Shown piece by piece: positions 5,593 to 54,438 of a stretch of 64,000 bases of DNA. The translations under genes and the position numbers were made by a program. Every line of letters begins with the position of its first letter. Position 1 is the stretch's first letter. The notes beneath the pieces were generated by a model, which saw only the letters and a program-made list of their open reading frames with translations, did no database searches and was not told the DNA's origin. This DNA is from a virus: positions 91,160 to 155,159 of the IMG/VR virus record IMGVR_UViG_3300032242_000550, one strand, 5' to 3'.

Positions 5593-6510
5593 ATGGATTT
5601 TACTGGTGGTATAACAGTTAGTGGTGGATTGAGTGTAACTAGACAACCTCCTCCTACACAAAAAGCTATATTTGGATATGGCTTTGCCGGTGGTAATCAG
5701 TCATTGACCAATTTAGTAAGTGACACCGGTGTAGTTGCTACTGATACTGCAGGTGTGGGCACTGCTAGATACGATCTAGCAGCCACTGGTTATGGAACAG
5801 GTACTGCTATGTTTGGATACGGTCAAAATGTTAATGGTGGATCCAGTTATCTTTCACTGACCAATCTAGTATCAACTACAGGTGTTGTTGCTACTGATAC
5901 TACAGGTGTTGGTACTGCTAGATACTCATTAGCAGGTACAATGTATGGAACCGACAAAGGTATATTTGGATATGGGCGCAATTCAGGTAGTGTATCAATG
6001 ACCAACTTAGTAAGTAATACAGGTGTAGTAGCTACAGATACAACAGGTGTCGGTACTGCTAGAAATTACCTTGCGGCCGCAGGCTATGGTGTTGACAAAG
6101 CTATTTTTGGATATGGAAATGGCGGCAGCGGTGTGACTAATTTGGTATCAAACACCGGTGTAGTTGCTACTGATACAGCACCCGTTGGTACTAATAGATA
6201 TGCATTAGCAGCCGCTGGTTATGGCACTGATAAGGCTATATTTGGATATGGAAATAATTTTTCAAGCGATGTGTCAGTAACCAATAAAGTATCAAATACT
6301 GGTGTAGTTGCTAGTGATACCACAGGTGTAGGAACAGCAAGAAGTTATCTAGCGGCTGCAGGCTATGGATCCGATAAAGCGATTTTTAGCTATGGTAGTG
6401 GTGGAAATAAAACCAATCTAGTAAGTAATACCGGTGTAGTTGCTAGTGATACAACAGGTGTTGGTACTTTTAGGGCTCAGCTGGCAGCTGTAAGCTTTAC
6501 TGGACAATAA
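5593..6510 (+). CDS. Six-bladed Kelch-like propeller adhesin, type A, copy 1
   Basis: The protein has 305 residues. Residues 1-22 (MDFTGGITVSGGLSVTRQPP) are an N-terminal module shared with nine other genes in the window. Then come exactly six repeats of about 46 residues, each with [K/T]A[I/M]FGYG, a short variable stretch, TNLVSNTGVVATDT, GVGTAR and LAA.GYG. The order and spacing resemble Kelch repeats, so a closed six-bladed beta-propeller is inferred; the protein starts with one strand and ends with its neighbour, which would close the ring. Sequence differences between repeats concentrate in the 4-12 residues after FGYG. Its place in the fibre array suggests a receptor-binding tip. No enzyme motif is seen. 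Confidence 0.75.
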   Translation: MDFTGGITVSGGLSVTRQPPPTQKAIFGYGFAGGNQSLTNLVSDTGVVATDTAGVGTARYDLAATGYGTGTAMFGYGQNVNGGSSYLSLTNLVSTTGVVATDTTGVGTARYSLAGTMYGTDKGIFGYGRNSGSVSMTNLVSNTGVVATDTTGVGTARNYLAAAGYGVDKAIFGYGNGGSGVTNLVSNTGVVATDTAPVGTNRYALAAAGYGTDKAIFGYGNNFSSDVSVTNKVSNTGVVASDTTGVGTARSYLAAAGYGSDKAIFSYGSGGNKTNLVSNTGVVASDTTGVGTFRAQLAAVSFTGQ

Positions 6511-6523
6511 TTTCACTCAAAAC

Positions 6524-6547
6524 AAAAGGCTTTACTGAGCCTTTTTT
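6524..6547 (+). terminator. Terminator between propeller copies 1 and 2
   Basis: AAAAGGCT (6524-6531) pairs with AGCCTTTT (6538-6545) around a 6-nt loop, with a run of T following. Confidence 0.85.
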
Positions 6548-6554
6548 GTTATCT

Positions 6555-6582
6555 GATAAATATGTTATAGGAATAATATATT
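6555..6582 (+). promoter_or_regulatory. Late promoter box overlapping a start-codon hairpin
   Basis: GATAAATA is at 6555-6562. AATATGTTAT (6559-6568) pairs with ATAATATATT (6573-6582) over 10 bp with one G-U, leaving the Shine-Dalgarno AGGA as a tetraloop directly before ATG 6583. The layout is the same as at 5566-5592. Confidence 0.6.
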
Positions 6583-7521
6583 ATGGCAGACATGACATTT
6601 ACAGGTGGTATAACGTTTACTGGTGGGTTTAGTATAGTCAAACCTCCACCTTCGTATCTTGCATATGCTATTTTTGGATATGGAACCGGAGCATCTGACT
6701 ATTCAATAACCAACCTAGTAAGTAACACAGGTGTAGTTGCCGCAGATACTACAGGGGTTGGTACTGTTAGAAGTCAACTTGCAGCCGCAAATTACGGCAC
6801 AGATAAAGCTATATTTGGGTATGGATACACAACTACCTATGTATCAATGACCAACAAAGTATCAAATACAGGGGTTGTGTCTATAGATACTACAGGGGTA
6901 GGCACTGCTAGAGCAGTTTTAGCAGCCGCTGGGTATGGCACAGATAAAGGTATCTTTGGATATGGGTCCAATGGCGGAGGGCAAACAGCCGTAACCAATC
7001 TAGTATCTAACACAGGAGTAGTAGCCACCGATACTACAGGTGTTGGTACTGCCAGAGAACAACTAGCGGCATCAGGTTATGGAACTGATAAAGCTATTTT
7101 TGGATATGGATACAATGGATCCGCTGGAGTTTCAACGACCAACTTAGTATCAAACACGGGTGTAGTTGCAGCAGATACTACAGGTGTGGGTACTGCTAGA
7201 CTTGGTCTAGCAGCCGCCGGTTATGGTAATTCCGGTCAAGCTATTTTTGGATATGGAAATGGTAATAAATCAATGACCAATTTAGTAAGTAATACAGGAG
7301 TTGTTGCCACAGATACTACCGGAGTTGGTACCGGTAGAAATGGATTAGCAGCCGCAACTTATGGTACAAATAAAGCTATTTTTGGTTATGGATACAATAG
7401 TAGTCTAGGTGTAGTTTCAATAACTAATCTAGTAAGTAATACAGGTGTAGTAGCTACTGATACTACAGGTGTAGGTACTAGTAGATATCTTCTTGCAGCC
7501 GCAAGTTACGGATCCATATGA
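6583..7521 (+). CDS. Six-bladed Kelch-like propeller adhesin, type A, copy 2
   Basis: The 312-residue protein has N-terminal module MADMTFTGGITFTGGFSIV and a Pro-rich linker, then six AIFGYG repeats. Variable stretches after FGYG include TGASDY, YTTTYV, SNGGGQTA, YNGSAGVS, NGNK and YNSSLGVV, while the TNLVSNTGVVATDT and GVGTAR segments are nearly constant in protein and DNA. It has its own terminator upstream and its own late promoter, so it can be expressed independently of copy 1. The inferred role is a fibre-tip or decoration adhesin, by the same argument as for copy 1. Confidence 0.75.
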   Translation: MADMTFTGGITFTGGFSIVKPPPSYLAYAIFGYGTGASDYSITNLVSNTGVVAADTTGVGTVRSQLAAANYGTDKAIFGYGYTTTYVSMTNKVSNTGVVSIDTTGVGTARAVLAAAGYGTDKGIFGYGSNGGGQTAVTNLVSNTGVVATDTTGVGTAREQLAASGYGTDKAIFGYGYNGSAGVSTTNLVSNTGVVAADTTGVGTARLGLAAAGYGNSGQAIFGYGNGNKSMTNLVSNTGVVATDTTGVGTGRNGLAAATYGTNKAIFGYGYNSSLGVVSITNLVSNTGVVATDTTGVGTSRYLLAAASYGSI

Positions 7522-7536
7522 TTTAAAAGATTTAGA

Positions 7537-7544
7537 CATAAATA
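7537..7544 (+). promoter_or_regulatory. Late promoter box CATAAATA
   Basis: A one-mismatch match to TATAAATA, 23 nt before ATG 7568, with ATAAAGGAAAAT as Shine-Dalgarno region between. Confidence 0.5.
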
Positions 7545-7567
7545 CATTTACTATAAAGGAAAATATC

Positions 7568-7788: not shown

Positions 7789-8709
7789 ATGGATTTTATT
7801 GGTGGAATAACTGTTAGTGGTGGATTGAGTGTAACAGCGCAACCGCCACCCTCAAGCAAGGCTATATTTGGTTACGGAGGAGGTTATTTATCAATAACCA
7901 ATCTAGTAAGCACATCAGGTATAGTTGCTAATGATACCGCAGGTGTAGGTACTGCTAGAACTGAGTTAGCAGCTGCCGGATACGGTACAGATAAAGCTAT
8001 CTTTGGATATGGTGAAAATAACGGACCACAGTCAATGACAAATAAAGTATCAAATACTGGTGTTGTTGCCACTGATACAACAGGTGTTGGTACTGCTAGA
8101 TGGGCACTTGCAGCCGCAGGATACGGCACTGATAAGGCTATTTTTGGATATGGCTGGAACAATTATGCTACTCAGATGTATGCCTTAACCAACAAAGTAT
8201 CAAATACAGGTGTAGTTGCTACTGACACAGGTGGTGTAGGTACTATCAGAACTGCACTAGCAGCCGCAACTTATGGAACTGATAAAGCTATATTTGGATA
8301 TGGATACAATAACTATTCTTCTACTATATATTCTCTGACTAATTTAGTATCAAACACTGGTGTTGTTGCCACTGATACTAGTGGTGTCGGTACTGCTAGA
8401 TATCAAATTGCGGCGGCTGGTTACGGCAGTGATAAAGCTATATTTGGATATGGAACTACTGGCGCATCAACAGCAATAACCAACAAAGTATCAAATACAG
8501 GAGTTGTTGCGAGTGATACAACAGGTGTCGGTACTGCTAGGCCAGGACTAGCGGCTGCTGGCTATGGGGTTGATACTGCTATATTTGGATATGGTGGTAA
8601 TCCTGGTCCAACTAACTTAGTATCAAATACAGGTGTAGTTGCGACTGATACTACACGTGTTGGTACGTCAAGAACCGGTCTAGCAGCAGCAAGTTACGGG
8701 CTAGCATAA
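7789..8709 (+). CDS. Six-bladed Kelch-like propeller adhesin, type A, copy 3
   Basis: The 306-residue protein shares N-terminal module MDFIGGITVSGGLSVTAQPP with copy 1 almost residue for residue, followed by six AIFGYG repeats and the closing half-repeat GVGTSRTGLAAASYG. Variable stretches after FGYG (GGYL, ENNGPQ, WNNYATQMYA, YNNYSSTIYS, TTGASTA, GNPGP) differ from those of copy 1 although the framework is the same. There is no terminator or clear promoter between it and the preceding small gene, and no strong Shine-Dalgarno, so coupling to 7568-7783 is likely. Confidence 0.75.
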   Translation: MDFIGGITVSGGLSVTAQPPPSSKAIFGYGGGYLSITNLVSTSGIVANDTAGVGTARTELAAAGYGTDKAIFGYGENNGPQSMTNKVSNTGVVATDTTGVGTARWALAAAGYGTDKAIFGYGWNNYATQMYALTNKVSNTGVVATDTGGVGTIRTALAAATYGTDKAIFGYGYNNYSSTIYSLTNLVSNTGVVATDTSGVGTARYQIAAAGYGSDKAIFGYGTTGASTAITNKVSNTGVVASDTTGVGTARPGLAAAGYGVDTAIFGYGGNPGPTNLVSNTGVVATDTTRVGTSRTGLAAASYGLA

Positions 8710-8769: not shown

Positions 8770-9435
8770 ATGGCATCAAATCTAAATTCAGAATTTAACT
8801 ATCGTTACCAAGTTATTGGTTCAACACCCTGGGAAAAAATCAAAACATTACAAGGCTTCTATGTCGGACGTAAACGTGCCGCTGTATTAGAAGAAGTAGC
8901 TGAACTAAAATATCAAGCTAAACTTGAAGAACTAAAACATTTAAAAACAGTTCCAGCATTACCACATATATTGCTTAATTTACAAGCAGAAATCATTGAG
9001 TTAGAATCACATTTAGATGACCAAAAACATGCATTTGAGCTTAATCGTAAAGAGATTAAGATATTAGAAAAACTTATGGCTGAACTATATGCTGAAGTTG
9101 AACCAACACGATTGAAACATCCAGATGGTACACCATATAGTGATGATGAGATGTTTGAAGCCAATGCTAATTATGAATTTACCGTAACAGTTGGTCGTGA
9201 GATACAATCTGAGATTATTGCTATGGGTAGACCTAGTCCAGCCAAGTTATTGAATGCTATGAGTAATCCAGAGACGTTACAATCATTAATGATGATTGGT
9301 CTTATACCACAAGGTACAGTGTTATTAGAGCAGAAAGACATTATGTTAGAGTTAACCAATCAGCAGCCTGTTGTTGAACCTGCAAAAGAGTTAGAAACTT
9401 CCACACCTAAGAAGAAGATAAAAAGAACAAAGTAA
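8770..9435 (+). CDS. Coiled-coil protein of unknown function in fibre array
   Basis: The 221-residue protein is largely helical. Residues ~35-120 are a likely coiled coil (KYQAKLEELKHLK, LNLQAEIIELESHL), residues 125-185 are mixed, and the C-terminus is a Lys-rich tail (TPKKKIKRTK). No signal peptide or catalytic motif is visible. It has its own promoter/hairpin and a terminator after it, so it is a single-gene unit between propeller genes, and its sequence is unlike the adhesins around it. It could be a structural or assembly protein; I do not recognise the family with certainty. Confidence 0.65.
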   Translation: MASNLNSEFNYRYQVIGSTPWEKIKTLQGFYVGRKRAAVLEEVAELKYQAKLEELKHLKTVPALPHILLNLQAEIIELESHLDDQKHAFELNRKEIKILEKLMAELYAEVEPTRLKHPDGTPYSDDEMFEANANYEFTVTVGREIQSEIIAMGRPSPAKLLNAMSNPETLQSLMMIGLIPQGTVLLEQKDIMLELTNQQPVVEPAKELETSTPKKKIKRTK

Positions 9436-9506: not shown

Positions 9507-10430
9507 ATGGATATTGGTGCAGGAATAACATTTGGTGCTGGGGTTAATATTGTTTATATACCTCCACCAACAAGTAAAGCTATCTTTGGATATGGTGTAA
9601 CTAGTGTTTATGTATCAATGACCAATCTTGTAAGTAACGCAGGTGTAGTTGCTACTGATACAACCGGTGTAGGTACAATAAGATCCACTCTTGCAGCCGC
9701 AACTTATGGTACGGATAAGGCTATATTTGGATATGGGGATGCCGGATCACCGGTATCTGTATCTAACAAGGTATCAAACACGGGTGTAGTTGCTACAGAT
9801 ACTACTGGTGTAGGTACTGCTAGACAATTATTAGCGGCAGCAGGATACGGATCAGATAAGGCTATATTTGGATATGGAGTATTCTACATCCCTTCAACAA
9901 CATATGTATCAATAACTAACCTAGTAAGTAATACAGGCGTAGTTGCATCTGACACTACTGGGGTAGGAACTGCTAGACAAAATCTTGCAGCAGCCGGTTA
10001 CGGAACTGATAAAGCTATATTTGGATATGGAAGTAATGGTTCGGGTTATGTATCAATGACCAATCTAGTATCAAATACAGGAGTAGTTGCTACTGATACA
10101 ACAGGTGTAGGTACTGCTAGGAGCGCACTTGCAGCCGCAACTTATGGTATTGATAAAGCTATATTTGGATACGGAACTACAAAAGTTACTAATTTAGTAA
10201 GTAACACAGGCGTAGTTGCAACTGATACTATCGGTGTAGGTACTACTAGAAATTATATTGCAGCCGCAGGTTATGGAGTTGATACTGCTATATTTGGATA
10301 TGGAACATCTAGTGGAACGGATGTATCAATAACTAATAAAGTATCAAACACCGGTGTAGTTGCAAACGATACTACAGGTGTAGGTACTGCTAGAAATGGT
10401 TTATCAGCGGCAAGTTACGGACTAGCATAA
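9507..10430 (+). CDS. Six-bladed Kelch-like propeller adhesin, type A, copy 4
   Basis: The 307-residue protein starts MDIGAGITFGAGVNIVYIPP and then has six AIFGYG repeats with variable stretches such as VTSVYV, DAGSPVSV, VFYIPSTTYV and TTKV. Its leader and first ~30 codons are nearly the same DNA as those of the next gene, and share a long block with the glycine-rich gene at 11410. It probably heads an operon of three adhesin genes (9507, 10451, 11410), because no terminator separates them. Function as a receptor-binding propeller is inferred. Confidence 0.75.
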   Translation: MDIGAGITFGAGVNIVYIPPPTSKAIFGYGVTSVYVSMTNLVSNAGVVATDTTGVGTIRSTLAAATYGTDKAIFGYGDAGSPVSVSNKVSNTGVVATDTTGVGTARQLLAAAGYGSDKAIFGYGVFYIPSTTYVSITNLVSNTGVVASDTTGVGTARQNLAAAGYGTDKAIFGYGSNGSGYVSMTNLVSNTGVVATDTTGVGTARSALAAATYGIDKAIFGYGTTKVTNLVSNTGVVATDTIGVGTTRNYIAAAGYGVDTAIFGYGTSSGTDVSITNKVSNTGVVANDTTGVGTARNGLSAASYGLA

Positions 10431-10494
10431 AAATAAAAGGATAACATATTATGGATATTGGTGCAGGAATAACATTTGGTCAGGGTGTGAATAT
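10430..10494 (+). repeat. 65-nt exact direct repeat, copy 1 (leader plus N-terminal module)
   Basis: Bases 10430-10494 are identical to 11389-11453. The repeat spans the AT-rich leader, the Shine-Dalgarno AAAAGGA, the ATG and the first 14-15 codons (MDIGAGITFGQGVN). A diverged third copy surrounds ATG 9507. Confidence 0.9.
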
Positions 10495-11377
10495 TGTTTA
10501 TATACCTCCACCAACAAGTAAAGCTATATTTGGATTTGGATATAGTACTACTTTTACAAATATAACTAATTTAGTCTCAACCACAGGTGTAGTAGCTACT
10601 GATACCACAGGGGTAGGTACTGTTAGACAAGGACTTGCAGCGGCAGGTTACGGAACAGATAAAGCTATTTTTGGATTTGGTGACTACTACTCCTTTGGCA
10701 ACGATTATTTCTCAATAACCAATCTAGTATCAAATACCGGTGTAGTAGCCGCAGACAACGGAACGGTTGGTCTTGCAAGAGGCTGGCTCGCCGCTACAGG
10801 TTACGGTACTGATAAAGCTATTTTTGGATTTGGAGTTAATTACGGCGGTGGGCGTAGTGAAACTAATCTAGTATCAAACACCGGTGTAGTTGCAACTGAT
10901 ACCGCTGGTGTAGGGTTTGCTAGACGATATCTAGCAGCCGCAAGATATGGAACTGATAAAGCTATATTTGGATATGGCGGCGGTGCCTCTTGGTATTCAA
11001 TGACCAATTTAGTATCAAATACTGGTGTAGTTGCTAGTGATACCACTGGTGTAGGTACTGCTAGGATGTACTTAGCAGCCGCAGGGTATGGCAATGATAA
11101 AGCTATATTTGGTTATGGCTCATCTATATCCGGAGTACAATCATTAACAAATTTAGTAAGTAACACCGGTGTTGTTTCTACCGATACAACCGGAGTCGGT
11201 ACTGCTAGAAATGCATTAGCAGCCGCAAGTTATGGTGTTGATACTGCTATTTTTGGTTATGGATCCGGACCAACTGCAATAACCAATTTAGTTTCAAACA
11301 CCGGTGTTGTTTCTACCGATACAACCGGGGTTGGTACTGCTAGAACCGGATTAGCAGCCTCAAATTATTCAACATAA
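10451..11377 (+). CDS. Six-bladed Kelch-like propeller adhesin, type A, copy 5
   Basis: The 308-residue protein starts MDIGAGITFGQGVNIVYIPP, followed by six AIFG[YF]G repeats; the first three have FGFG in place of FGYG. Variable stretches (YSTTFTN, DYYSFGNDYF, VNYGGGRSE, GGASWY, SSISGVQS, SGPTA) are not shared with copy 4. It lies 20 nt after copy 4 with AAAAGGATAAC upstream. The framework of repeats 4-6 is closer to the consensus than that of repeats 1-3, suggesting the gene is a mosaic of blades with different histories. Confidence 0.75.
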   Translation: MDIGAGITFGQGVNIVYIPPPTSKAIFGFGYSTTFTNITNLVSTTGVVATDTTGVGTVRQGLAAAGYGTDKAIFGFGDYYSFGNDYFSITNLVSNTGVVAADNGTVGLARGWLAATGYGTDKAIFGFGVNYGGGRSETNLVSNTGVVATDTAGVGFARRYLAAARYGTDKAIFGYGGGASWYSMTNLVSNTGVVASDTTGVGTARMYLAAAGYGNDKAIFGYGSSISGVQSLTNLVSNTGVVSTDTTGVGTARNALAAASYGVDTAIFGYGSGPTAITNLVSNTGVVSTDTTGVGTARTGLAASNYST

Positions 11378-11388
11378 AATCGCAACAC

Positions 11389-11453
11389 AAAATAAAAGGA
11401 TAACATATTATGGATATTGGTGCAGGAATAACATTTGGTCAGGGTGTGAATAT
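11389..11453 (+). repeat. 65-nt exact direct repeat, copy 2 (leader plus N-terminal module)
   Basis: Identical to 10430-10494, but here it feeds a glycine-rich protein instead of a propeller. The change of downstream domain right after an identical 5' block is the signature of a domain swap. Confidence 0.9.
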
Positions 11454-12258
11454 AACACCGCAACCACCTTCAATTACATTTCTTATAATAGCAGGTGGAG
11501 GAGGCGGTGGTAGTTACGGCGGTAGCGGTGGCGGCGCAGGTGGTTATATCACTACCACTGCAGCCTATGCGCCAGGGACGGTTTATACGGTTACTGTTGG
11601 CGCAGGTGGGACAGGTGGTACAGCATTTGATAAAGGTACTAGCGGGGCAAATAGTTCCGTTACAGGCTTTACTACTGCAGTGGGAGGTGGTGCTGGATCT
11701 GGCGCATTTAGTGCTGCTTTAAGTGGTGGTTCAGGAGGCGGTGCCGGTTACCCATCAAGTCCAACTGGAGGTTCAGGCATAATAGGACAAGGATTTGCTG
11801 GTGGTTCAAGTGGAGGTCAACTTTACATTGGCTCTGGTGGCGGCGGCTCTAGTGGTGTTGGTATTGACAGTGGTACTTCACCAACATATATTGCAGGAAA
11901 TGGTGGGCCTGCTACTGCATCAATAATTACGGGTGCTTCCGTATATCGAGCCGGTGGCGGTGGCGGTGGCGTTGGCATCACAGCAGGCGGCACCGCCGGT
12001 AGTGGCGGTGGCGGTGGGGCAGGAAACGGTGGCAATCAAAGCGCCGCTCCTACTGCTGGAGCAGTAAACACCGGTAGTGGTGGAGGTGGCTCGGGTAGTG
12101 GTGCCGGTTATACTGGCGCTGCGGGTGGATCAGGTGTGGTTATAATATCAGTACCAAGTACTTCCTACAGCGGTACAACCACCGGTTCACCTACAGTAAT
12201 AACTTCTGGCAGTAATACTATTATGCAATTTAATTCATCGGGAAGTTATACATCGTGA
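11410..12258 (+). CDS. Glycine-rich adhesin with propeller-type N-terminal module
   Basis: The 282-residue protein begins with the same MDIGAGITFGQGVN module as the propeller at 10451, then switches at about residue 18 to a Gly-rich domain (FLIIAGGGGGGSYGG, then YTVTVGAGGTGG) with many GGGG and GSGGG runs up to ~245. A short beta-rich C-terminus contains VVIISVPSTSYSG. Gly-rich domains of this kind occur in phage fibre proteins; T2- and S16-type gp38 adhesins expose polyglycine-flanked loops. A receptor-binding role is inferred. It closes the operon begun at 9507. Confidence 0.75.
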   Translation: MDIGAGITFGQGVNITPQPPSITFLIIAGGGGGGSYGGSGGGAGGYITTTAAYAPGTVYTVTVGAGGTGGTAFDKGTSGANSSVTGFTTAVGGGAGSGAFSAALSGGSGGGAGYPSSPTGGSGIIGQGFAGGSSGGQLYIGSGGGGSSGVGIDSGTSPTYIAGNGGPATASIITGASVYRAGGGGGGVGITAGGTAGSGGGGGAGNGGNQSAAPTAGAVNTGSGGGGSGSGAGYTGAAGGSGVVIISVPSTSYSGTTTGSPTVITSGSNTIMQFNSSGSYTS

Positions 12259-12325: not shown

Positions 12326-12688
12326 ATGGCACATTTTGCACAAATAGATGAAAACAACATCGTTACCCAAGTTATTGTAATAGAGCAATATGTATTGGAT
12401 ACCGGTCTATTTGGTGATCCAATTAATTGGATTCAAACAAGCTATAACACAATAGGTGGTGTACACAAATTAGGTGGTACACCATTACGTAAAAATTATG
12501 CTGGTATAGGTTATACTTATGATAGTACAAGAGATGCATTTATACCACCTAAACCTTTTAACAGTTGGGTATTAAATGAAACTAGTTGCATATATGAAGC
12601 TCCTACACCTAAACCAGCTGACTACCCGAATATACAGTATGTTTGGGATGAACCAACACTAAGTTGGATAGAATTCACTGATGTGTAA
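12326..12688 (+). CDS. Conserved small phage protein, W-D-E-P-T C-terminus, copy 1
   Basis: This 120-residue soluble protein (MAHFAQIDENNIVTQVIVIE..., GIGYTYDSTRDAFIPPKPF) resembles small proteins I remember from cyanophages and other aquatic T4-like phages, where no function is established. A close paralogue lies at 36182. Both end in a W-D-E motif also found twice in the 71-residue protein at 7568. All three lie beside propeller genes, so a virion or fibre-assembly role is a reasonable guess. Confidence 0.75.
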   Translation: MAHFAQIDENNIVTQVIVIEQYVLDTGLFGDPINWIQTSYNTIGGVHKLGGTPLRKNYAGIGYTYDSTRDAFIPPKPFNSWVLNETSCIYEAPTPKPADYPNIQYVWDEPTLSWIEFTDV

Positions 12689-13170: not shown

Positions 13171-16100
13171 ATGGCAGCAGATGATTTCAATTCGTTAGGC
13201 GGGTACTCAATTGGTATACCGCCTGTTCCCGTAATTGATGCTAATGGTAATGTTGTTACAAACGTATTAGCTACAAGTGGAAATGTTGCCGCAGCCAACA
13301 TATATGGTGGTAATTATTTTTATGCAAATGGTAGACCCTTCACAGGAGGGGTAGATCCAGGTGGTCCAAATACTAGTATTCAATATAATAACAACACGTT
13401 TTTTGATGGTAGTACAAATTTTACATTTGACAATACTACAAACTTAGTAACAGTACCAAATTTAAATGTAACCGGCACAAGTAATTTAGGCCCTATAGGT
13501 AATATTACTATTGGTGGCGGTAATTCAGGATATGCATTAACTACAGACGGATCTGGCGGATTATATTGGACACCTCCAGGTAGTGGTACTAGTGGAATTA
13601 GTAAAGGTACTAGTAATTTATTAGTTGTTAGTACTAATGGAAATATTGTTGCCGGTATTGGTGGTGTTCCCAACATATTAACAATTTCTACTAATGGAAT
13701 TAATGTACTTGGTAATGTTGTTGCTAATAGATTCGTTGGAAATATATTTGGTAGTGCAAATACAGTAGTTAACAACGCACAGCCAAACATCACTAGTGTT
13801 GGTAATTTAATATCATTAGATGTTGTTGGAAACATTAATGCAGGTAACGTAATAGCAACAACATTTGTTGGTAATTTAATTGGTAGCGCAAATACAGTAA
13901 CTGATAATGCACAGCCAAATATCACAAGTGTTGGTACATTAATAACATTAGATGTTACTGGTAACGCTAATGTAGGTGCATTACTAACAGATAGTATATT
14001 ATATGCTAATGGCACACCTTATGTGTTTACAACTAATGCCGCAGGAAGTAATACACAAGTACAGTATAATAATAATAATGCGTTTAGTGGTATTGCAAAT
14101 TTCACATTTGATAATACTAGTAATACATTAACAGTTACTAATATCATTGCTAATGGAGCAGGATTAACATCATTAACTGGTGCAAACGTTACTGGTGAAG
14201 TAGCTTATGCTAATATAGCTAATAATGTAGCTGTGGCAAATGTTATAGGTATAGGTAATATTGCCACAACAAACTATGACGGAAATAGTAGTAATGTATT
14301 ACATGGTGACGGTACTTGGAGTGCTGACCAAACTAATTATAGCAATAGTAATGTAGTTTCATTATTAAATGCATTTGGATCAAATAATATAACAACAACT
14401 GGTAATATTTCAGCAGGTAATCTTGCTGGAAACGGTTCTGCTATATCATCAATAACTGGTGCAAATGTTACCGGTCAAGTAAATTATGCTAATATAGCTA
14501 ATAATGTAGCTGGCGCAAATGTCTCAGGTGCAGTAGCTTATGCAACCACAGCTAATAGTGTAGCCGGAGCAAACGTATCTGGTCAAGTAAATTATGCTAA
14601 TGTAGCTAATAATGTAGCTGGTTCTAATGTTTCTGGTCAAGTAAATTATGCCGCGGTTGCTAATTCAGTAGCAGGTGCTAATGTTTCTGGTACTGTTGCC
14701 AATGCAACACATGCAACTGTTTCTGACAGTGCAAATAGTGTAGCTGGTGCTAATGTGTCCGGTGCTGTTGCATTTGCGACAACAGCTAATAGTGTCGCTG
14801 GTTCTAATGTTTCTGGCGCTGTTGCATTTGCGACAACTGCTAATAGTGTTGCTGGTTCTAATGTTTCCGGTCAAGTAGGTAACAGTTTAGTTGCTGGTAC
14901 CGTATATACAAATAGCCAGCCAAATATTACAAGTGTAGGTACATTAACTAGCTTAACAGTATCTGGTAATGCTAATACAGGTAACTTGGGTACAAACAAT
15001 TTTATTGCTACAGGCACAGGTAGTTTTGGTGCTAACATCAACATGAACAATAAGTGGATAAACAATGTTGGTTATCCTAATCTAAACACTGATGTTGCTA
15101 CAAAAGCATATGTTGATACGATGATATCTAGTGGTATCAGCTATCATCAACCAGTACAAGTTGCAACTACAACTACACTAGCAATCGCTACAGGTGGCAC
15201 AACTGCTTATATACAACCAAATGGTGCGGGTAATGGTATAGGTGCATATATCAGTACTACAGGTACTTATTTAAATATTGACGGTGCAAATGTACAAACT
15301 GTTGGCACACGTATTTTAGTTAAAAATGAAGCTAATCAAGCATGGAATGGTGTTTACACATATGCTAATACAACCGCTATTGTACGTTCTACTGATACAG
15401 ATGAATATGGCCCGGATAGTGTACAACAATTAAGTATTAATGACTATTTCTTTGTTCAAGGCGGTATTGTTAATGAAGGTGTTGCTTTCATTGTTAATGC
15501 ACCAAGCGGTACAATTATTTTTGGTACTTCAAACATTACATTTAGTCAGTTTAGTACAAGTCAGGTTTATAATGCTGGTACAGGATTAACATTAGATGGT
15601 ACTATATTTAATATCAGTAATACTACAGTTACTTCAGGAAGTTATGGAAACGGTGATCGTGTTGCAACGTTTACAGTCAATAGTCAGGGTCAATTAACAG
15701 CCGCAAGTAATACAGCAATAACAGCAAATGCCGCTAACTTAACTGGCACAACTCTTGCTAGTTCAGTAGTAAACAGTTCACTAACAAGTGTTGGTACATT
15801 AACTATTCTAACAGTATCAGGTAACATTACCGGTGCTAACATATATGCTAACAGTGGTACAATTGGTGCAAATCTATTAACTGGTACATTAACAACCAAT
15901 GCTCAACCAAATATTACAAGTACTGGCACATTAACTAATTTAGTTGTAACTGGTAATATAATTAGCGGCAATGTATATGCTAATAGTGGTACAATTGGGG
16001 CAAATCTATTAACTGGCACATTAACAACATCAGCACAACCAAATGTAACAAGTGTTGGTACATTAACTAATTTGGTTGTTACCGGTAATACAATTAGTGG

Positions 16101-17892
16101 TAATGTATATGCTAATAGTGGTACGATTGGTGCAAATCTATTAACAGGTACACTAACAACTAATGCTCAACCAAATGTAACAAGTGTAGGATCATTGACT
16201 ACCTTAACTGTTATTGGTAATGCTAATGTAGGTAATTTAGGCACAGCTGGATTAATTACTGCTACTGGGAACGTTTCTGGTGGTAATTTGACTACCGGTG
16301 GTGCAGTTGTAGCTACAGGAAATGGTACGTTTGGTAATATCACTACGACTGGTACTGGTGGCAATATATATGGTGCTAATAATATCAGTGCTAATACGTT
16401 TACCGGAGTACTTACAACTAATGCACAGCCGAATATAACAAGTATTGGTACATTAACTAGTTTAATAGTTTCAGGTAATATTACGAGTGGTAATGTATAT
16501 GCCAATAGTGGTACAATTGGTGCAAGTCTATTAACTGGTACACTAACTACATCAGCTCAACCAAACATAACAAGTACAGGTACACTAACTAGCTTAAGTG
16601 TTACTGGTAATGTTACTAGTGGTAATGTATATGCCAATAGTGGTACGATTGGTGCAAATCTATTAACCGGTACACTAACAACTAATGCTCAGCCAAACAT
16701 AACAAGTACAGGTACGTTAACTAATTTAGTTGTTACCGGTAATGTTACTAGTGGCAATGTATATGCCAATAGTGGTACGATTGGTGCAAGTTTATTGAAT
16801 GGAGTATTGACCACTAGTGCCCAACCAAATATTACCAGTGTTGGTACATTAACTAGTATAACTGTATCCGGTACAAGTAATTTAGGTAGTGTGGGTAATG
16901 TAATAATTACGGGCGGTACTAGTGGTTATTATTTACAGACAAATGGATCAGGTGGGTTAAGTTGGTCATCAGTACCAACTGGTACCGGTATCAGTAATGG
17001 TAATAGTAATGTAAATATCCCGGTTATAAATGGCAATGTTACTATATCTAGTGCAGGTAATGCTAATATTGTAGTAATTACTGGTACAGGTGCAAACATT
17101 AGTGGCACATTAAATGTAACTAGCAATATATATGCTAGTAATTTTATTGCAAGCTCAAGTGGTAGTATTACTGGTGCTAATTTAGTATCAGCAAATTACT
17201 TTACAGGTACATTAACAACAGCGGCACAACCTAATATTACCAGTGTTGGCACATTAACTAGTTTAAGTGTTACTGGTAATATCAGTAGTGGAAATGCTAA
17301 TTTAGGCAATAATGTTAGTGCTAATTATTTTACCGGTGACCTTTACGGAACAGCTAATCTAGCTACATATGCAACAACTGCAAATAGTGTAGCAGGGGCT
17401 AATGTATCTGGACAGGTAAGTAATAGTTTAGTAGCAGGTACAGTATATACAAATAGCCAACCAAACATAACAAGTACTGGTACATTAACTAGTTTAAATG
17501 TATCTGGACCATTAGTAGCAAACACATTCCAAATGGGATATGGTGTATATGCGTTTTATTCAACATCTGTATATTTTGCTACTACAGCAAGTACATCTCC
17601 TAATCAAGTTTTATGGAATTATCCGGCTGCAGACTTGACAGCCATTGATTTTACGATTATTGCAACAAATAGTTCTGGTTTAACTAGACAAAGTTGCAAA
17701 ATTTCAGCCGCTATACTAGGAACTACCGTAGCATATAATGAATATGGTGGTTTACATATAAATGGTGGCGTGGGCAGTTTTAGTGTGGTATATAACGGAA
17801 GTGGACCGACTCCAACATTGGATCTAATAGTCACCCCAGACTCGTCGGACGTAACGGAATATAACATGTTAATTTCAAAATATCTGGTTTGA
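13171..17892 (+). CDS. Giant repeat tail fibre 1 (1573 residues)
   Basis: Residues 1-30 (MAADDFNSLGGYSIGIPP) are an N-terminal module shared with the genes at 17946 and 23630. The bulk is Asn/Gly/Thr/Ser/Val-rich repeats of the form QPNITSVGTL, LTVSGN and ANVSGQVNYA, compatible with a long trimeric beta-structured shaft. At ~630-810 lies a non-repetitive insert (DVATKAYVDTM, GTRILVKNEAN, NDYFFVQ) shared with the fibres at 17946 and 25237, followed by GDRVATFTVNSQGQLTAAS. Residues ~1455-1573 are a distinct non-repetitive domain likely to be the tip. The role is inferred from repeat type, size and context: a tail-fibre or baseplate appendage. Confidence 0.8.
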   Translation: MAADDFNSLGGYSIGIPPVPVIDANGNVVTNVLATSGNVAAANIYGGNYFYANGRPFTGGVDPGGPNTSIQYNNNTFFDGSTNFTFDNTTNLVTVPNLNVTGTSNLGPIGNITIGGGNSGYALTTDGSGGLYWTPPGSGTSGISKGTSNLLVVSTNGNIVAGIGGVPNILTISTNGINVLGNVVANRFVGNIFGSANTVVNNAQPNITSVGNLISLDVVGNINAGNVIATTFVGNLIGSANTVTDNAQPNITSVGTLITLDVTGNANVGALLTDSILYANGTPYVFTTNAAGSNTQVQYNNNNAFSGIANFTFDNTSNTLTVTNIIANGAGLTSLTGANVTGEVAYANIANNVAVANVIGIGNIATTNYDGNSSNVLHGDGTWSADQTNYSNSNVVSLLNAFGSNNITTTGNISAGNLAGNGSAISSITGANVTGQVNYANIANNVAGANVSGAVAYATTANSVAGANVSGQVNYANVANNVAGSNVSGQVNYAAVANSVAGANVSGTVANATHATVSDSANSVAGANVSGAVAFATTANSVAGSNVSGAVAFATTANSVAGSNVSGQVGNSLVAGTVYTNSQPNITSVGTLTSLTVSGNANTGNLGTNNFIATGTGSFGANINMNNKWINNVGYPNLNTDVATKAYVDTMISSGISYHQPVQVATTTTLAIATGGTTAYIQPNGAGNGIGAYISTTGTYLNIDGANVQTVGTRILVKNEANQAWNGVYTYANTTAIVRSTDTDEYGPDSVQQLSINDYFFVQGGIVNEGVAFIVNAPSGTIIFGTSNITFSQFSTSQVYNAGTGLTLDGTIFNISNTTVTSGSYGNGDRVATFTVNSQGQLTAASNTAITANAANLTGTTLASSVVNSSLTSVGTLTILTVSGNITGANIYANSGTIGANLLTGTLTTNAQPNITSTGTLTNLVVTGNIISGNVYANSGTIGANLLTGTLTTSAQPNVTSVGTLTNLVVTGNTISGNVYANSGTIGANLLTGTLTTNAQPNVTSVGSLTTLTVIGNANVGNLGTAGLITATGNVSGGNLTTGGAVVATGNGTFGNITTTGTGGNIYGANNISANTFTGVLTTNAQPNITSIGTLTSLIVSGNITSGNVYANSGTIGASLLTGTLTTSAQPNITSTGTLTSLSVTGNVTSGNVYANSGTIGANLLTGTLTTNAQPNITSTGTLTNLVVTGNVTSGNVYANSGTIGASLLNGVLTTSAQPNITSVGTLTSITVSGTSNLGSVGNVIITGGTSGYYLQTNGSGGLSWSSVPTGTGISNGNSNVNIPVINGNVTISSAGNANIVVITGTGANISGTLNVTSNIYASNFIASSSGSITGANLVSANYFTGTLTTAAQPNITSVGTLTSLSVTGNISSGNANLGNNVSANYFTGDLYGTANLATYATTANSVAGANVSGQVSNSLVAGTVYTNSQPNITSTGTLTSLNVSGPLVANTFQMGYGVYAFYSTSVYFATTASTSPNQVLWNYPAADLTAIDFTIIATNSSGLTRQSCKISAAILGTTVAYNEYGGLHINGGVGSFSVVYNGSGPTPTLDLIVTPDSSDVTEYNMLISKYLV

Positions 17893-35221: not shown

Positions 35222-36163
35222 ATGGCAATATTAAGTGGATTAACAATATCAGGCGGTGGGATAACTATTCAAGGCGCCAGTGGCGGTGGAGGAGGTGGTA
35301 CACAAAAAGCTATCTTTGGATATGGATCTACTGCTGGAGGATATCAATCCATAACCAATCTAGTGAGCAACACTGGTGTTGTTGCCGCAGATACCACAGG
35401 TGTTGGCACTATCAGATCCTCTTTGGCAGCCGCCGGCTATGGCGGTGACAAAGCTATATTTGGTTATGGCACCGGTGCCGGAGGTTCAAAATCAGTGACC
35501 AATTTGGTATCAAACACTGGTGTAGTGGCCACAGATACCGCCGGTGTTGGCACGGCTAGACCTTATCTAGCAGCCGCCGGATACGGCACTGATAAAGCCA
35601 TATTTGGTTATGGATTGGCAGCAGGCGCGTCAGCATTAACCAACTTAGCATCAAATACAGGTGTAGTTGCCACAGATACAGCAGGTGTGGGTACTGCGAG
35701 ATATGGATTAGCAGCCGCTGGTTATGGCACAGACAAAGCCATATTTGGATATGGAACTAGTAGTAGTGATACATCAATAACCAATCTAGTAAGTAACACA
35801 GGGGTCGTAGCCACAGATACAACTGGTGTTGGCACCGCTAGGTCCTTTCTAGCAGCCACAGGCTATGGAGGTGACAAAGCCATATTTGGTTATGGAGTTA
35901 CTACTCCGATACTTTCAATGACCAATCTAGTATCAAACACAGGTGTAGTAGCCACAAATACCACCGGTGTAGGAACTGCTAGATATAATCTTGCAGCCGC
36001 TGTTTATGGAGGTGATAAAGCCATATTTGGATATGGAAATGATGGTTCACCGTATTCAGCAGTAACTAACTTAGTGAGTAATACAGGTGTTGTAGCCACA
36101 GATACCGCCGGTGTTGGCACTGCTAGACAGGCAGTAGCAGCCGCAGGGTATTCACTAAATTAA
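35222..36163 (+). CDS. Six-bladed Kelch-like propeller adhesin, type A, copy 6
   Basis: The 313-residue protein has N-terminal module MAILSGLTISGGGITIQGA and a six-glycine linker instead of the Pro linker, then six KAIFGYG repeats. Variable stretches after FGYG include STAGGYQ, TGAGGSK, LAAGAS, TSSSDT, VTTPIL and NDGSPYSA. It lies ~24 kb from the cluster of type A copies 1-5 yet keeps the same framework, and is again followed by a W-D-E family gene, so propeller plus partner may move as a cassette. Function inferred as for copy 1. Confidence 0.75.
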   Translation: MAILSGLTISGGGITIQGASGGGGGGTQKAIFGYGSTAGGYQSITNLVSNTGVVAADTTGVGTIRSSLAAAGYGGDKAIFGYGTGAGGSKSVTNLVSNTGVVATDTAGVGTARPYLAAAGYGTDKAIFGYGLAAGASALTNLASNTGVVATDTAGVGTARYGLAAAGYGTDKAIFGYGTSSSDTSITNLVSNTGVVATDTTGVGTARSFLAATGYGGDKAIFGYGVTTPILSMTNLVSNTGVVATNTTGVGTARYNLAAAVYGGDKAIFGYGNDGSPYSAVTNLVSNTGVVATDTAGVGTARQAVAAAGYSLN

Positions 36164-47674: not shown

Positions 47675-48520
47675 ATGAAACAAGAATTCTTTTTTTATAG
47701 TGGATTACCAAGAGCTGGCGGAACAATGTTAGCTTCAGTAATGAACCAACATACAGATTTATATGTTAGTCCATTAAGCCCTACAGTAGAATTATTATAT
47801 TATACAGAAAGATATTTTGATGAAAGTAGTGAGGCATATAGTGCAAATCCACAACCAGTGGCTAAACAAAGTGTACTAGAATCATTACCAAGAGAATATT
47901 ATAAAAATATACCTAAAAAGTATATTATGGATAACAATCGTGCATGGCCTAATAATACTGATAGAATTATTAAATTTATCACTAACAAACCAAAGATTGT
48001 ATGTATAGTTAGAGATGTACCATCTATATTAGCTAGTTTTATTGATTTAGTGAATCGTAGTAATAATCCAGGAAATAACTTTATTGACCGTTGGTTATTA
48101 GATAATCGTATGGAATTGAATACTAGAAATAGATGTTATTATTTGATGCAGCCAATTGGTATTGTAAATCAAAGTTTATGGAGTATGTATCAGGGTTACA
48201 GTAATCCAAGTGTAAAAGCTTGTATGCATATGGTAGAGTATGATGATTTGATTAGTAATCCTGAAGAAACAATGAGTGATATTGTTGATTTCTTAGATAT
48301 ACCAAAATATAAGTTTATGTTTAACGATATTAAGAATGTAACACCCGTAGATGATGTAACATATAATTTAGAAGGTATGCATAGTGTAAGACCTAAGTTA
48401 GCCAGTAGAAATTTAGATCCAGTAGAAATATTAGGATCTGATTTAGTTAGTCAGTATTCTGGTTTAGAGTACTGGAGAGAAGTTAGTAAACCAAGTAAAA
48501 TCAAGTTGTTTAGTATATAA
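47675..48520 (+). CDS. Sulfotransferase
   Basis: The 281-residue protein carries the PAPS-binding loop FFFYSGLPRAGGTML (residues 5-19; family pattern [KR][ST]G[TS]T) and the 3'-phosphate-binding segment IVCIVRDVPSILASF with Arg113 and Ser117. MVEYDDLISNPEETM and FLDIP fit the C-terminal half of sulfotransferase family 1/3 proteins. In this family a sulfuryl group is moved from PAPS to a sugar, Tyr or other acceptor. It is the last gene of the unit starting at 45912 and lies directly before a propeller gene. The APS-kinase-like gene 6 kb downstream could supply PAPS. Confidence 0.8.
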   Translation: MKQEFFFYSGLPRAGGTMLASVMNQHTDLYVSPLSPTVELLYYTERYFDESSEAYSANPQPVAKQSVLESLPREYYKNIPKKYIMDNNRAWPNNTDRIIKFITNKPKIVCIVRDVPSILASFIDLVNRSNNPGNNFIDRWLLDNRMELNTRNRCYYLMQPIGIVNQSLWSMYQGYSNPSVKACMHMVEYDDLISNPEETMSDIVDFLDIPKYKFMFNDIKNVTPVDDVTYNLEGMHSVRPKLASRNLDPVEILGSDLVSQYSGLEYWREVSKPSKIKLFSI

Positions 48521-48552: not shown

Positions 48553-49542
48553 ATGCCAGTAACAATAACAGGTGGAGTATCATTTTCAGGGGGAGGTGTC
48601 TCAATGGTAGGGGCTCCTCCTACAGTAGCCACAGCAGGATGGTATGGTGGTGGTAACGGACCAGTATCTACTATAGATCGCATAACATTTGCTACAGATA
48701 CTGCAACTGCGACTGCACGTGGACCATTAAGTTCTGCAACTTATAATTTAGGAGCAAGTGGTAATCTTACATACGGATGGTGGGCAGGTGGTGTCAATCC
48801 CGGTGTTGCTCCATTTTATTCACTTTCCACTGTACAACGAATCACATATGCTACAGATACTGCTACTGCTTCAGTAAGAGGCTCTTTAGCTGCCACTAAT
48901 AGGACTGGTGCAGGTTCCGGTAATACATCAGATGGGTGGTTCGGTGGGGGGTATAATGGACCGGGCGCCGCTGTTAATATATTATCACTTGTTAGTAGAA
49001 TAACATATGCCACAGACACTAATACTGCATCACAACGAGGTCCGTTAAGTTTAGCAAGAACAAAAATTGCTTCAGCTTCAGATAATAGTGCTTATAGCTG
49101 GTTTGCAGGTGGTAATTTACTTCCTGGTCCCCTTTCTACCGTAGATCGCATAACATATGCAACCGATACAGCAACAGCAAGTGTACGCGGTCCATTAACT
49201 GCTGCAAAATATAATTTATCTGCAATGGGTAATTCAGCATATGGTTGGTTTTGTAGTGGGTATGTATTTGGAGTGTCGGCATACAGTTCGTCTGTAATCA
49301 GAATAGATTATGCAAATGATACAACAACTCCGAGTATACGCGGTCCATTAAGTTCAGCAAGACGTTTAGTAGGCGCAGCCGGTAATGACACTGATGGTTG
49401 GGTAAGCGCCGGCGGAAGCTCACCTGGTCCCCTCTCTACCGTAGATCGCATAACATATGCAACCGATACTAATACTGCAAGTGTACGCGGACCGTTGACT
49501 TCTGCTAGATATGGATTAGCTGGCGCAGCCGGACTACAATAA
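48553..49542 (+). CDS. Six-bladed Kelch-like propeller adhesin, type B, copy 1
   Basis: The 329-residue protein has the shared N-terminal module (MPVTITGGVSFSGGGVSMVG) and a Pro linker, then exactly six repeats of [YD]GW[FWYV]..G followed by a variable loop, RITYATDTATASVRGPL and an S.AR..L segment. In type A the matching positions are AIFGYG, TNLVSNTGVVATDT and GVGTAR, so the two types appear homologous but strongly diverged. Repeats 3 and 6 share longer DNA blocks with repeats 1 and 4. A closed six-bladed propeller with a variable loop face is inferred, acting as an adhesin. Confidence 0.75.
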   Translation: MPVTITGGVSFSGGGVSMVGAPPTVATAGWYGGGNGPVSTIDRITFATDTATATARGPLSSATYNLGASGNLTYGWWAGGVNPGVAPFYSLSTVQRITYATDTATASVRGSLAATNRTGAGSGNTSDGWFGGGYNGPGAAVNILSLVSRITYATDTNTASQRGPLSLARTKIASASDNSAYSWFAGGNLLPGPLSTVDRITYATDTATASVRGPLTAAKYNLSAMGNSAYGWFCSGYVFGVSAYSSSVIRIDYANDTTTPSIRGPLSSARRLVGAAGNDTDGWVSAGGSSPGPLSTVDRITYATDTNTASVRGPLTSARYGLAGAAGLQ

Positions 49543-51370: not shown

Positions 51371-52071
51371 AAAACAATCTATTAACTAACATATTGATTG
51401 TTCCTAATGTAATTTCTAAAGAGGGAATAGCTTTCATTATGGATCATGCTAAAAAACAGAAACATGAAGATTTATCTGTGTTTGATCCAGAACAAAGTAA
51501 TAAGACTAGTAGTACTAAGTTTAGTGTAGACAAAAGTGTTAGAGATACACAGATGCTTGATTTAGAAGGTATTGCTAATGAGATAATTATGTTATATAAA
51601 AATACTGTAACTAATGTTATCAATCCATTTTATGAGTTTGAGATTAAAGATTCTGAGTTACCACAATTGTTACATTATGGCATTGATGGGCATTATATGC
51701 CACATTGTGATGGAGAATCGTTATGGAAACCACCAGGAAATGAGCCATTGATTTGGCGTAAAAGTACTGATAGAGATTTAAGTACGGTATTTTTTTTGAA
51801 TGATGATTTTGAAGGTGGTGATTTTGTATTCCCTGAATTAAAAATTAGAGTTCGTCCAGAGCCAGGCATGTTAGTTTGTTTCCCTTCCACACATGAATAT
51901 TTACATGGTGTTGAACCAGTAACTAGTGGTACTAGATACAGTATGGTTAATTGGATGACAGTTAAAGGATTTCCTAGTATGGAAGAAGAAACTGCTATGA
52001 TTAATCATAAATACAATATAGGTAACAAGAATGTTGCTGATAAAAAGGAAAAAACATGGCTAAGTACATAA
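51367..52071 (+). CDS. Prolyl-4-hydroxylase-like Fe(II)/2-oxoglutarate oxygenase
   Basis: The 234-residue protein has HYMPHCDGE with His113-x-Asp115, then STVFFLNDDFEGGDFVFPEL (138-157), PGMLVCFPSTHEYLHGVEPV with His180 and SGTRYSMVNWM with Arg190. These are the iron and 2-oxoglutarate ligands of the P4H/2OG-FeII family. Phages of this group often carry such enzymes; targets may be proline or other residues in proteins. It overlaps the preceding gene by ATGA and the next gene by 16 nt, so the three are one translational unit. Confidence 0.85.
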   Translation: MKNNLLTNILIVPNVISKEGIAFIMDHAKKQKHEDLSVFDPEQSNKTSSTKFSVDKSVRDTQMLDLEGIANEIIMLYKNTVTNVINPFYEFEIKDSELPQLLHYGIDGHYMPHCDGESLWKPPGNEPLIWRKSTDRDLSTVFFLNDDFEGGDFVFPELKIRVRPEPGMLVCFPSTHEYLHGVEPVTSGTRYSMVNWMTVKGFPSMEEETAMINHKYNIGNKNVADKKEKTWLST

Positions 52072-52469: not shown

Positions 52470-52505
52470 TATATAGTAAGCCATAACAGTAGATGTAAAT
52501 AGTGT

Positions 52506-52534
52506 GATAAATACACTATATTAAAGGGAAATAT
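52506..52534 (+). promoter_or_regulatory. Late promoter box GATAAATA with small start-site hairpin
   Basis: GATAAATA is at 52506-52513. TATATT (52517-52522) pairs with AATATA (52530-52535) leaving AAAGGGA in the loop; the last pair includes the A of ATG 52535. The layout is a weaker version of 5566-5592. Confidence 0.5.
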
Positions 52535-53509
52535 ATGGCACTAGTAATAGAAGGTGGTTGGACATTTGGTGGTGGAATATCAATAACTCCACCGCCGCCG
52601 TCTACTGCAACAGCAGGATGGGTTAGCGGAGGACAAACAACTCCTAGTCCGGCAGTATCTGTTGTAGATCGTATAACATTTGCAACAGATACTGCCACAG
52701 CAAGCGTTCGCGGTCCACTAAGTTTAGTAAGGCATTCTGGGTCAGCAGCCGGCACACTCAATTACGGATGGGTAATTGCTGGTTATTCACCTAACTCAGC
52801 ACAATCATTAGTAGATAGAATAACATATGTTACGGATACTGCTACTGCAAGTGTACGTGGCCCAACAAGTATTGCTGCATATTCTATTAGTGCAACAAGC
52901 GACAGTACTACTTATGGTTGGTTTGGCGGAGGAATCTCAGCCAGTGTTCTAAGTACAATTCAACGTATTACATTTGCAACCGATACTGACACAGCAAGTA
53001 TACGTGGCCCGTTAAGTTTAGCACGATCTCAAATGGCTGCTACTGGGTCTAGTAGTTATGGTTGGTATATGGGCGGACTGGGCCCGGGATCAACCGTAGA
53101 TCGTATCACTTATGCTTCAGATACTGCTACTGCAACTGCTAGAGGTCCCCTAGCTTTAATAGTTTATGCTTCAGCGGGAGCAGTAACTGATAATACAACA
53201 TACGGATGGTATGCCGGCGGTAATGTACCTGCTCCTGATTATACCACATCTACTGTGCAACGTATTACATATGCAACAGATACTGCAACAGCTGGTGTTC
53301 GCGGACCATTAGTAGCTAACAGAGTTTCAAGTACGGCAGCTGTTAGTGATACTACATACGGTTGGTTTGGTGGAGGATATGTTAGCGGTGTACCTACTTC
53401 ATTAATTACTCGCATTACATTTGCAACAGATACAGCAACGTCAGTTAATCGTGGACTTTTGAGTGTAGGACGAATAAATTTACTCGGCGGATCATCCGGA
53501 CTACAATAA
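52535..53509 (+). CDS. Six-bladed Kelch-like propeller adhesin, type B, copy 2
   Basis: The 324-residue protein has the N-terminal module MALVIEGGWTFGGGISITPP with a Pro run, then exactly six GW[FVY]..G repeats, each with a RIT[FY]ATDTATA.VRGPL segment. Variable stretches after the GW motif (QTTPSPAVS, YSPNSAQ, ISASV, LGPG, NVPAPDYTTS, YVSGVPTS) differ in length as well as sequence. It is followed 11 nt later by another type B gene, so the two are probably cotranscribed. Function inferred as for copy 1. Confidence 0.75.
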   Translation: MALVIEGGWTFGGGISITPPPPSTATAGWVSGGQTTPSPAVSVVDRITFATDTATASVRGPLSLVRHSGSAAGTLNYGWVIAGYSPNSAQSLVDRITYVTDTATASVRGPTSIAAYSISATSDSTTYGWFGGGISASVLSTIQRITFATDTDTASIRGPLSLARSQMAATGSSSYGWYMGGLGPGSTVDRITYASDTATATARGPLALIVYASAGAVTDNTTYGWYAGGNVPAPDYTTSTVQRITYATDTATAGVRGPLVANRVSSTAAVSDTTYGWFGGGYVSGVPTSLITRITFATDTATSVNRGLLSVGRINLLGGSSGLQ

Positions 53510-53520
53510 AAGGATAAGTA

Positions 53521-54438
53521 ATGTCAATAACAATAACTGGTGGATTTTCAATGGCAGGCGGCGGCTTCACTGTTATACCTCCACCACCAGCAACACAAAC
53601 TGCGGGTTGGTGGGCAGGTGGACGAGCAAATGCAAGCGTAGTGTCTATTGTTGATCGCCTTACATATGCAACAGATACTGCAACTACAAGTGTTCGTGGT
53701 CCACTAAGTGGAAGCTACTATTATATTGCGTCAGCAGGAACGTTCACTGCTGGTTGGTTTACAACTGGTGAGGGTAGCCGTACTATAACTCGTATTACAT
53801 ATGCAACAGATACTGATATTTCAAGCAATCGTGGGTTGTTTTTTGCGGCAACAGCACGAGGGGTGTCTGCGTCATCAAATGGTACTACGTATGGATGGTT
53901 CACTCCAATTGGTAACTATTTTAACCGTCTTTCATATGCAAGCGATACTACAGAGCCAGTACTACGTGCAACTCCAGCTAGTACTTTCTTTATGGCTGCA
54001 ACAGGAACCAGTAGTTATGGTTGGTTTGGTGGAGGTTATGTATCATCAACAATCGTATCTACTGTACAACGTCTTGATTATAGCAATGATGGTTCTACCC
54101 CTACTATACGAGGACCATTAAGTGCAGCCGTAAGATATCACGCAGGAACCGGGGATGGCACTACTTACGGATATTATGTTGCTGGTAACTCAAGTTCAAC
54201 GGTACAACGTATCACCTATGCAACAGATACTAATACTGCAAGTATACGTGGTCCGTTTACTTTGTCAATTAATAAATTAGCGGGGGCCGGAAACGATACA
54301 TATAGCTGGCTTAGTGGGGCATATAATAATACTAGTATAGGACGTATAACCTATTCAACAGATACTAATACTGCAAGCACTAGAGGATCATTAAGTGCTG
54401 GTAGATATGCATTGGGAGCTACTTCAGGCATACAATAA
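53521..54438 (+). CDS. Six-bladed Kelch-like propeller adhesin, type B, copy 3
   Basis: The 305-residue protein has N-terminal module MSITITGGFSMAGGGFTVIP, then six repeats that are the most diverged of the type B set: GWWAGG, GWFTTG, GWFTPI, GWFGGG, GYYVAG and SWLSGA. R[IL][TS]YA[TS]DT persists in most repeats. The AAAGGATAAGTA leader matches those of the type A genes at 10451 and 11410 (AAAAGGATAAC), a leader resemblance across propeller types. Ring closure by N- and C-terminal strands is expected. A receptor-binding role is inferred. Confidence 0.72.
   Translation: MSITITGGFSMAGGGFTVIPPPPATQTAGWWAGGRANASVVSIVDRLTYATDTATTSVRGPLSGSYYYIASAGTFTAGWFTTGEGSRTITRITYATDTDISSNRGLFFAATARGVSASSNGTTYGWFTPIGNYFNRLSYASDTTEPVLRATPASTFFMAATGTSSYGWFGGGYVSSTIVSTVQRLDYSNDGSTPTIRGPLSAAVRYHAGTGDGTTYGYYVAGNSSSTVQRITYATDTNTASIRGPFTLSINKLAGAGNDTYSWLSGAYNNTSIGRITYSTDTNTASTRGSLSAGRYALGATSGIQ

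Follow-up and report, generated by a model that had tools for sequence, protein, structure and literature searches.

Multi-copy six-bladed propeller genes with two variable sites per blade as putative exchangeable binding heads of an uncultured phage

We analyzed the final 64 kb (hereafter, the window) of a 155,159-bp IMG/VR virus record, derived from an uncultured virus that infects bacteria, and found nine genes, or ten in the whole record, that we interpret as putative exchangeable binding heads of the virion, encoded in a host-recognition island. We assign this interpretation a probability of about 0.6. According to it, each protein would consist of a short N-terminal anchor and a closed six-bladed Kelch-type propeller, and in every blade the loop after strand 2 (post-FGYG or post-GGG) and the two residues after a conserved arginine would vary. 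Two sites in each of six blades would add up to twelve variable patches, located on the face with which KEAP1 holds its ligand, while purifying selection would keep the framework rigid.

Results

The window opens on T4-type head genes, which are followed by five type A propeller genes with a partner gene, P, among them, and then by a glycine-rich protein (Table 1). Large fibre-like genes, with matches to tail-fibre and baseplate PHROGs, fill positions 13171-45236, and the sixth type A gene lies among them. One of these genes (41985-45236) encodes a 1083-aa protein with short GN-rich repeats (NTAVGYQAGYSNTTG...) that resembles trimeric adhesin head repeats. In addition, a 118-120 aa protein (PHROG 7759, unknown) occurs in two close copies, at 12326-12688 and 36182-36538, one behind each type A group. 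The second propeller group comprises the three type B genes together with sulfotransferase, glycosyltransferase and 2OG oxygenase genes. Ribonucleotide reductase genes come next, and a class II aldolase domain protein is encoded between their large and small subunit genes (58328-58978).

The region between the capsid gene and the first large fibre-like gene can be regarded as a plastic island, because its contents are replaced or absent among phages whose capsid proteins are 94-97% identical: the gap contains propellers, a LamG head, desaturase-like genes, or nothing. Homologues of the fibre-like gene on the right border adjoin the 3' end of the capsid gene in some relatives that have no array.

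Table 1. Coordinates of the main features, numbered from the first base of the window.
Feature	Position	Strand	Basis or remark
Maturation protease, T4-type head gene	1626-2270		PHROG scan
T4-type major capsid protein, left border of the island	3403..4599	+	PHROG 138, E 9e-99
HNH homing endonuclease, at the edge of the plastic island, immediately 3' of the capsid gene	4689-5489		
Type A propeller gene 1, 24-aa anchor and six blades	5593..6510	+	Segmentation, alignment
Type A propeller gene 2	6583..7521	+	Segmentation, alignment
Type A propeller gene 3	7789..8709	+	Segmentation, alignment
Partner gene P, 221 aa, MASNLNSEFNYR...	8770..9435	+	
Type A propeller gene 4 (AlphaFold query)	9507..10430	+	Segmentation, AlphaFold, fold search
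Type A propeller gene 5	10451..11377	+	Segmentation, alignment
Unrelated glycine-rich head with the same anchor (MDIGAGITFGQGVNI) as type A gene 5	11410..12258	+	PF21722, E 3e-19
Large fibre-like gene (MAADDFNSLGGYSIGIPP...), right border of the island	13171..17892	+	
Type A propeller gene 6	35222..36163	+	Segmentation, alignment
Sulfotransferase and 2OG-Fe(II) oxygenase adjoining type B genes	47675-48520, 51367-52071		
Type B propeller gene 1, Kelch fold predicted	48553..49542	+	Segmentation, model, PHROG 19111
Type B propeller gene 2	52535..53509	+	Segmentation
Type B propeller gene 3, most diverged, blades 2-3 weak	53521..54438	+	Segmentation, PHROG 19111

An earlier, sequence-only reading of the window had proposed nine paralogous ORFs, each with exactly six Kelch-like repeats. 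All nine ORFs were confirmed, and segmentation gave six repeats in every one of them, 43-51 aa long in type A and 42-54 aa long in type B, so that both types show the pattern by which Kelch domains are recognized (six repeats of about 44-56 residues each). The description as paralogues holds in part: there are two gene types with six blades each, but they form distant families rather than nine close paralogues, and the profile-profile match between them (probability 84%, E 7e-6) has a poor residue register. The tenth copy in the record, which is the seventh of type A, lies outside the window (C1:24735-25658, minus strand).

The number of blades was similarly constant elsewhere. Six repeats were present in 162 of 174 type A ORFs from a first IMG/VR collection, in 131 of 155 distinct type A ORFs after the addition of loci fetched via gene P, and in 39 of 45 type B ORFs from IMG/VR; among the exceptions, at least 11 type A ORFs run into contig ends, and five of the six type B ORFs reach one. 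Relatives are encoded in 494 IMG/VR stretches, which places the propeller pattern far beyond chance, and a phage genome may carry up to 17 type A copies (17 in one 524-kb record). The C-terminus of the protein lies only 0-2 residues past the last blade, which fits closure of the first blade by the last strand. At one phage locus, a three-blade and a four-blade piece (L029:6493-7672) replace the single six-blade gene found in several contigs (L022:6728-7672), a split that may reflect recombination or misassembly, and these odd blade counts were left out of the analysis. Type A received no usable name from scans of Pfam and PHROG, and neither type matched a Kelch family in Pfam. Type A also had zero matches across 50,697 phage records and is therefore invisible to culture-based work.

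The expectation of a closed six-bladed propeller was supported by structure prediction for type B, whereas the model of type A was poor. The predicted type B model (pLDDT 84.6, pTM 0.85) had a Plasmodium Kelch domain, the designed protein SAKe6 and KEAP1/KLHL as its best Foldseek matches in the PDB (E 2e-18 to 3e-16), with an rmsd of 2.1-3.0 Å to the best Kelch matches and a TMt of about 0.9 against KEAP1. The type B profile also found the designed Kelch protein SAKe6FR by sequence (E 8e-8), and this alignment is in register, with the GG-loop on the GG-loop and the post-R pair on the "RSG/RSA" pair. For type A, an AlphaFold run with gene 4 as the query and 58 type A sequences gave a low-confidence model (pLDDT 52.8), probably because the framework is too uniform, and its best fold matches were KLHL17, KLHL20 and KEAP1 (TM about 0.5). 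We infer a closed propeller for type A as well, from the six repeats, the two-site pattern and the Kelch domains among the top matches of this model.

Next, we considered where the variation lies. The type A framework (TNLVSNTGVVATDT, GVGTAR, LAAAGYG) is near constant in the window alignment, as the sequence-only reading had stated, and the post-FGYG segments, which are 4-12 residues long, are all distinct (36 of 36). That reading had confined the variation to this loop. The loop is indeed strongly variable, but a second site exists, namely the two residues following the R of GTAR, for which 33 of 36 pairs in the window are distinct, with entropies of 3.6 and 3.5 bits. We then computed the entropy of each column over 462, and later 768, type A blades from IMG/VR, and found the variability concentrated at the two sites rather than spread evenly. 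In the set of 768 blades, the mean column entropy was 0.53 bits in the framework and 2.97 bits in the variable sites, and the high-entropy match columns were 7-15, in the loop behind FGYG, and 37-38, the pair behind R. These blades contained 697 distinct loops and 177 distinct R-xx pairs, and 349 inserted residues in the loops as opposed to 26 elsewhere. The R-xx residues were mostly Y (19%), G (15%) and S (12%). In type B, variation occupies the same two positions, but the framework is looser. The contrast between framework and variable sites strongly supports the idea of a variable surface on a fixed scaffold.

Both sites would match the ligand face of KEAP1. We take Ser363, Asn414, Arg415, Ser508, Ser555, Ala556 and Ser602 of KEAP1 to be the residues directly after "PR/RR" in successive blades, and Arg380 and Asn382 to be residues of the post-GG loop. 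All of these residues are ligand contacts (PMC6891428), so that by analogy the two variable sites correspond to ligand-contact positions, both of which face the ligand in KEAP1.

The propeller is always C-terminal, and the part preceding it differs: many proteins have short anchors, such as MDIGAGITFG..PPP, MSITITGGIT.. or NHYNQRASGLWPTSVY (consensus M..ITGGIT..GG..I..PPP), and some have long domains. Identical anchors precede type A, type B or unrelated heads. In the window, type A gene 5 and the glycine-rich gene downstream of it share a 20-nt leader, and 44 of their first 45 coding bases are identical, which we regard as a direct DNA trace of head exchange.

Gene P could be assigned to neither a Pfam nor a PHROG family, and cultured phages gave no match to it. 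In a search seeded with P, 43 of 51 distinct P loci had a propeller at a distance of at most 600 bp, in most cases immediately upstream and sometimes overlapping, and the other loci adjoin glycine-rich, LamG or FN3 heads that bear the same kind of anchor. P probably assists the assembly of the propeller array or serves as its adaptor. The only bacterial copy among 84,980 species genomes is likewise a pair of propeller and P, in a MAG of Oligoflexia bacterium BroJett040 (L182:5749-7555), where it is flanked by ABC transporter genes, metK, lepA and lepB. Its six-blade type A propeller lies behind an apparent twin-arginine signal (SRRKFF) and on this basis seems to be exported. Given that such a pair is present in one of 369 genomes of this phylum, it was probably acquired horizontally, the alternative being a MAG artefact.

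We also investigated how the diversity arises. The absence of a reverse transcriptase from the window, which had been noted from the sequence, extends to the whole record in a search with PF00078 that was positive in control genomes; the record itself is possibly only part of a genome. Up to 11 contigs share an identical allele, so that diversification cannot be seen over the time scale sampled, and there have been few recent changes. Rapid fixed-length residue replacement of the DGR type was not seen between near-identical genomes, since the alleles are identical and the loop lengths differ. Nonsynonymous to synonymous changes were 8:3 in the variable sites and 11:30 in the framework (Fisher p 0.008), a contrast that owes most to a single allele pair, since p rises to 0.40 when this pair is removed. 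One allele pair (L103 and L106), from the position that follows the capsid gene, has 88% DNA identity in the 5' flank and 92% in the last blade, whose loop is also the same, whereas blades 1-5 resemble each other no more than unrelated blades do (63-82%). This pattern, seen in one such pair, suggests mosaic replacement inside the gene. Given the recurrence of identical alleles and this mosaic pair, the diversity appears to arise slowly via recombination and selection.

Two other ideas were rejected. For recent gene conversion between the window genes, no exact match was longer than 38 nt, and the mean DNA identity of blades is hardly higher within the same gene (0.746) than between genes (0.735). 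Complete synonymous saturation was unsupported, as codon preferences persist in some framework columns.

Discussion

In these otherwise near-identical proteins, strong variation is confined to the positions by which human relatives of the fold hold their partners, and the phage therefore probably carries an inbuilt library of binding heads with which to recognize hosts. That the variable surface binds host receptors is suggested by the genomic context and by relatives: the exchangeable heads on shared anchors lie in a tail-fibre and host-recognition island, relatives in Synechococcus phage S-SKS1 adjoin a baseplate wedge gene and a tail-fibre gene, and the Kelch protein CBB_552 of Pectobacterium phage CBB was detected in the virion by mass spectrometry (PMC5259590). 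In such a library, different heads would show different faces, so that a single phage could be specific for several host surface structures. Novel faces would probably emerge slowly, through shuffling of blades and genes by homologous recombination and through point changes under selection, with no retroelement; whole heads would be swapped via recombination at the shared leader and anchor, and gene P would probably aid their folding or attachment. A stronger form of this proposal, which we put forward only tentatively, is an antibody-like repertoire, with a fixed Kelch scaffold, twelve patches, up to 17 copies, blade shuffling and anchor-head swaps in place of a retroelement, captured once with P by a bacterium that apparently exports the propeller.

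Among the other explanations, the one that survives best, unlikely as it is, is that the propellers are decoration heads of the virion that bind non-receptor targets, such as particles, polymers or multicellular surfaces, and keep the phage near its hosts, as has been assumed for Hoc- or tentaclin-like proteins. The array lies directly behind the capsid gene, the anchors are short, the copies are many (as in the 524-kb record), and for tentaclins the doubt between RBP and other roles has been discussed (PMC10743442). However, the island also holds large fibre-like genes, and the neighbours of the S-SKS1 relatives are genes of the baseplate wedge and tail fibre.

We find it improbable that the proteins are intracellular binders of host proteins, for defence or takeover, whose variation tracks diverse host targets. 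Kelch domains are protein-binding modules, poxvirus Kelch adaptors act on host proteins inside the cell, and 2OG oxygenase, sulfotransferase and glycosyltransferase genes lie nearby. Nevertheless, glycine-rich, LamG and FN3 heads, which are typical of virion adhesins, have the same anchors, the single bacterial copy seems to bear an export signal, and CBB_552 is located in the virion.

It is quite improbable that the loops are merely unconstrained and that their variability reflects drift instead of binding. Solvent-exposed loops that tolerate length change, together with the scarcity of recent changes, would fit this explanation, but the post-R pair sits in an almost invariant strand without any length change and still reaches 3.5 bits with enrichment of Y, G and S. 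Other turn positions (columns 30-31 and 46) are far less variable, both sites coincide with known ligand positions, and the nonsynonymous excess in the variable sites also argues against drift. Lastly, glycan-binding propeller lectins of the PLL/PHL type are a very improbable identity, since these are seven-bladed and longer (369-381 aa), the matches of the type A profile to PLL2 (E 1e-7) and PHL (E 3e-7) slide by whole repeats and are a link of sequence match only, and the fold search favours Kelch domains; we therefore rejected membership of this family.

If the reading as exchangeable binding heads is true, evolution in uncultured phages has produced an extensive public library of binding proteins that share a single rigid scaffold and can be compared with designed Kelch scaffolds. 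From the framework one could then predict the residues that set specificity, so that twelve short patches could serve both to infer the host range of uncultured phages and to test it, and the conserved gene P would provide a handle on head assembly.

Like the Kelch domains of KEAP1 and KLHL proteins, the propellers have six blades of about 46-50 aa, four-stranded in those proteins, and the type B model superposes on them at about 2.2 Å (TM 0.75-0.80). Unlike them, the phage proteins have no BTB/BACK parts and no Pfam Kelch match, their framework is near identical from blade to blade, and both contact sites are variable in all six blades. Another related system is PHROG 19111, with proteins of the cultured cyanophage S-SKS1, to which type B is homologous (E 5e-29). 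There, the same two sites vary (15 different pairs in 18 blades) and sulfotransferase and 2OG oxygenase genes are neighbours, as they are beside the type B genes of the window, but the number of blades varies instead of being fixed at six, and the function is unnamed.

At the level of gene order, the host recognition cluster of T4-like pelagi- and cyanomyophages, which sits between VrlC and gp14 (PMC7029224), is also a plastic island of fibre and glycosyltransferase genes in the structural region, whereas the island described here lies behind the capsid gene and carries propeller arrays. DGR targets such as tentaclins (PMC10743442) resemble the present proteins in being phage adhesins with variable binding residues on a fixed scaffold; here, in contrast, the record has no reverse transcriptase, the alleles are stable and the loop lengths change. 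The fold search also listed several Kelch proteins annotated as virion structural proteins, and known cases include PhiPA3/Noxifer structural proteins and BcepSaruman. Together with CBB_552, these are Kelch propellers of large tailed phages, but the literature we found on them is without large two-site-variable arrays on a constant framework. In the incompletely covered literature, we found no paper on two-site variable Kelch arrays, the six-blade rule, anchor-head exchange or gene P. Thus, Kelch proteins of phage virions are already known, and it is their two-site variable, multi-copy, anchor-swapped form that is new.
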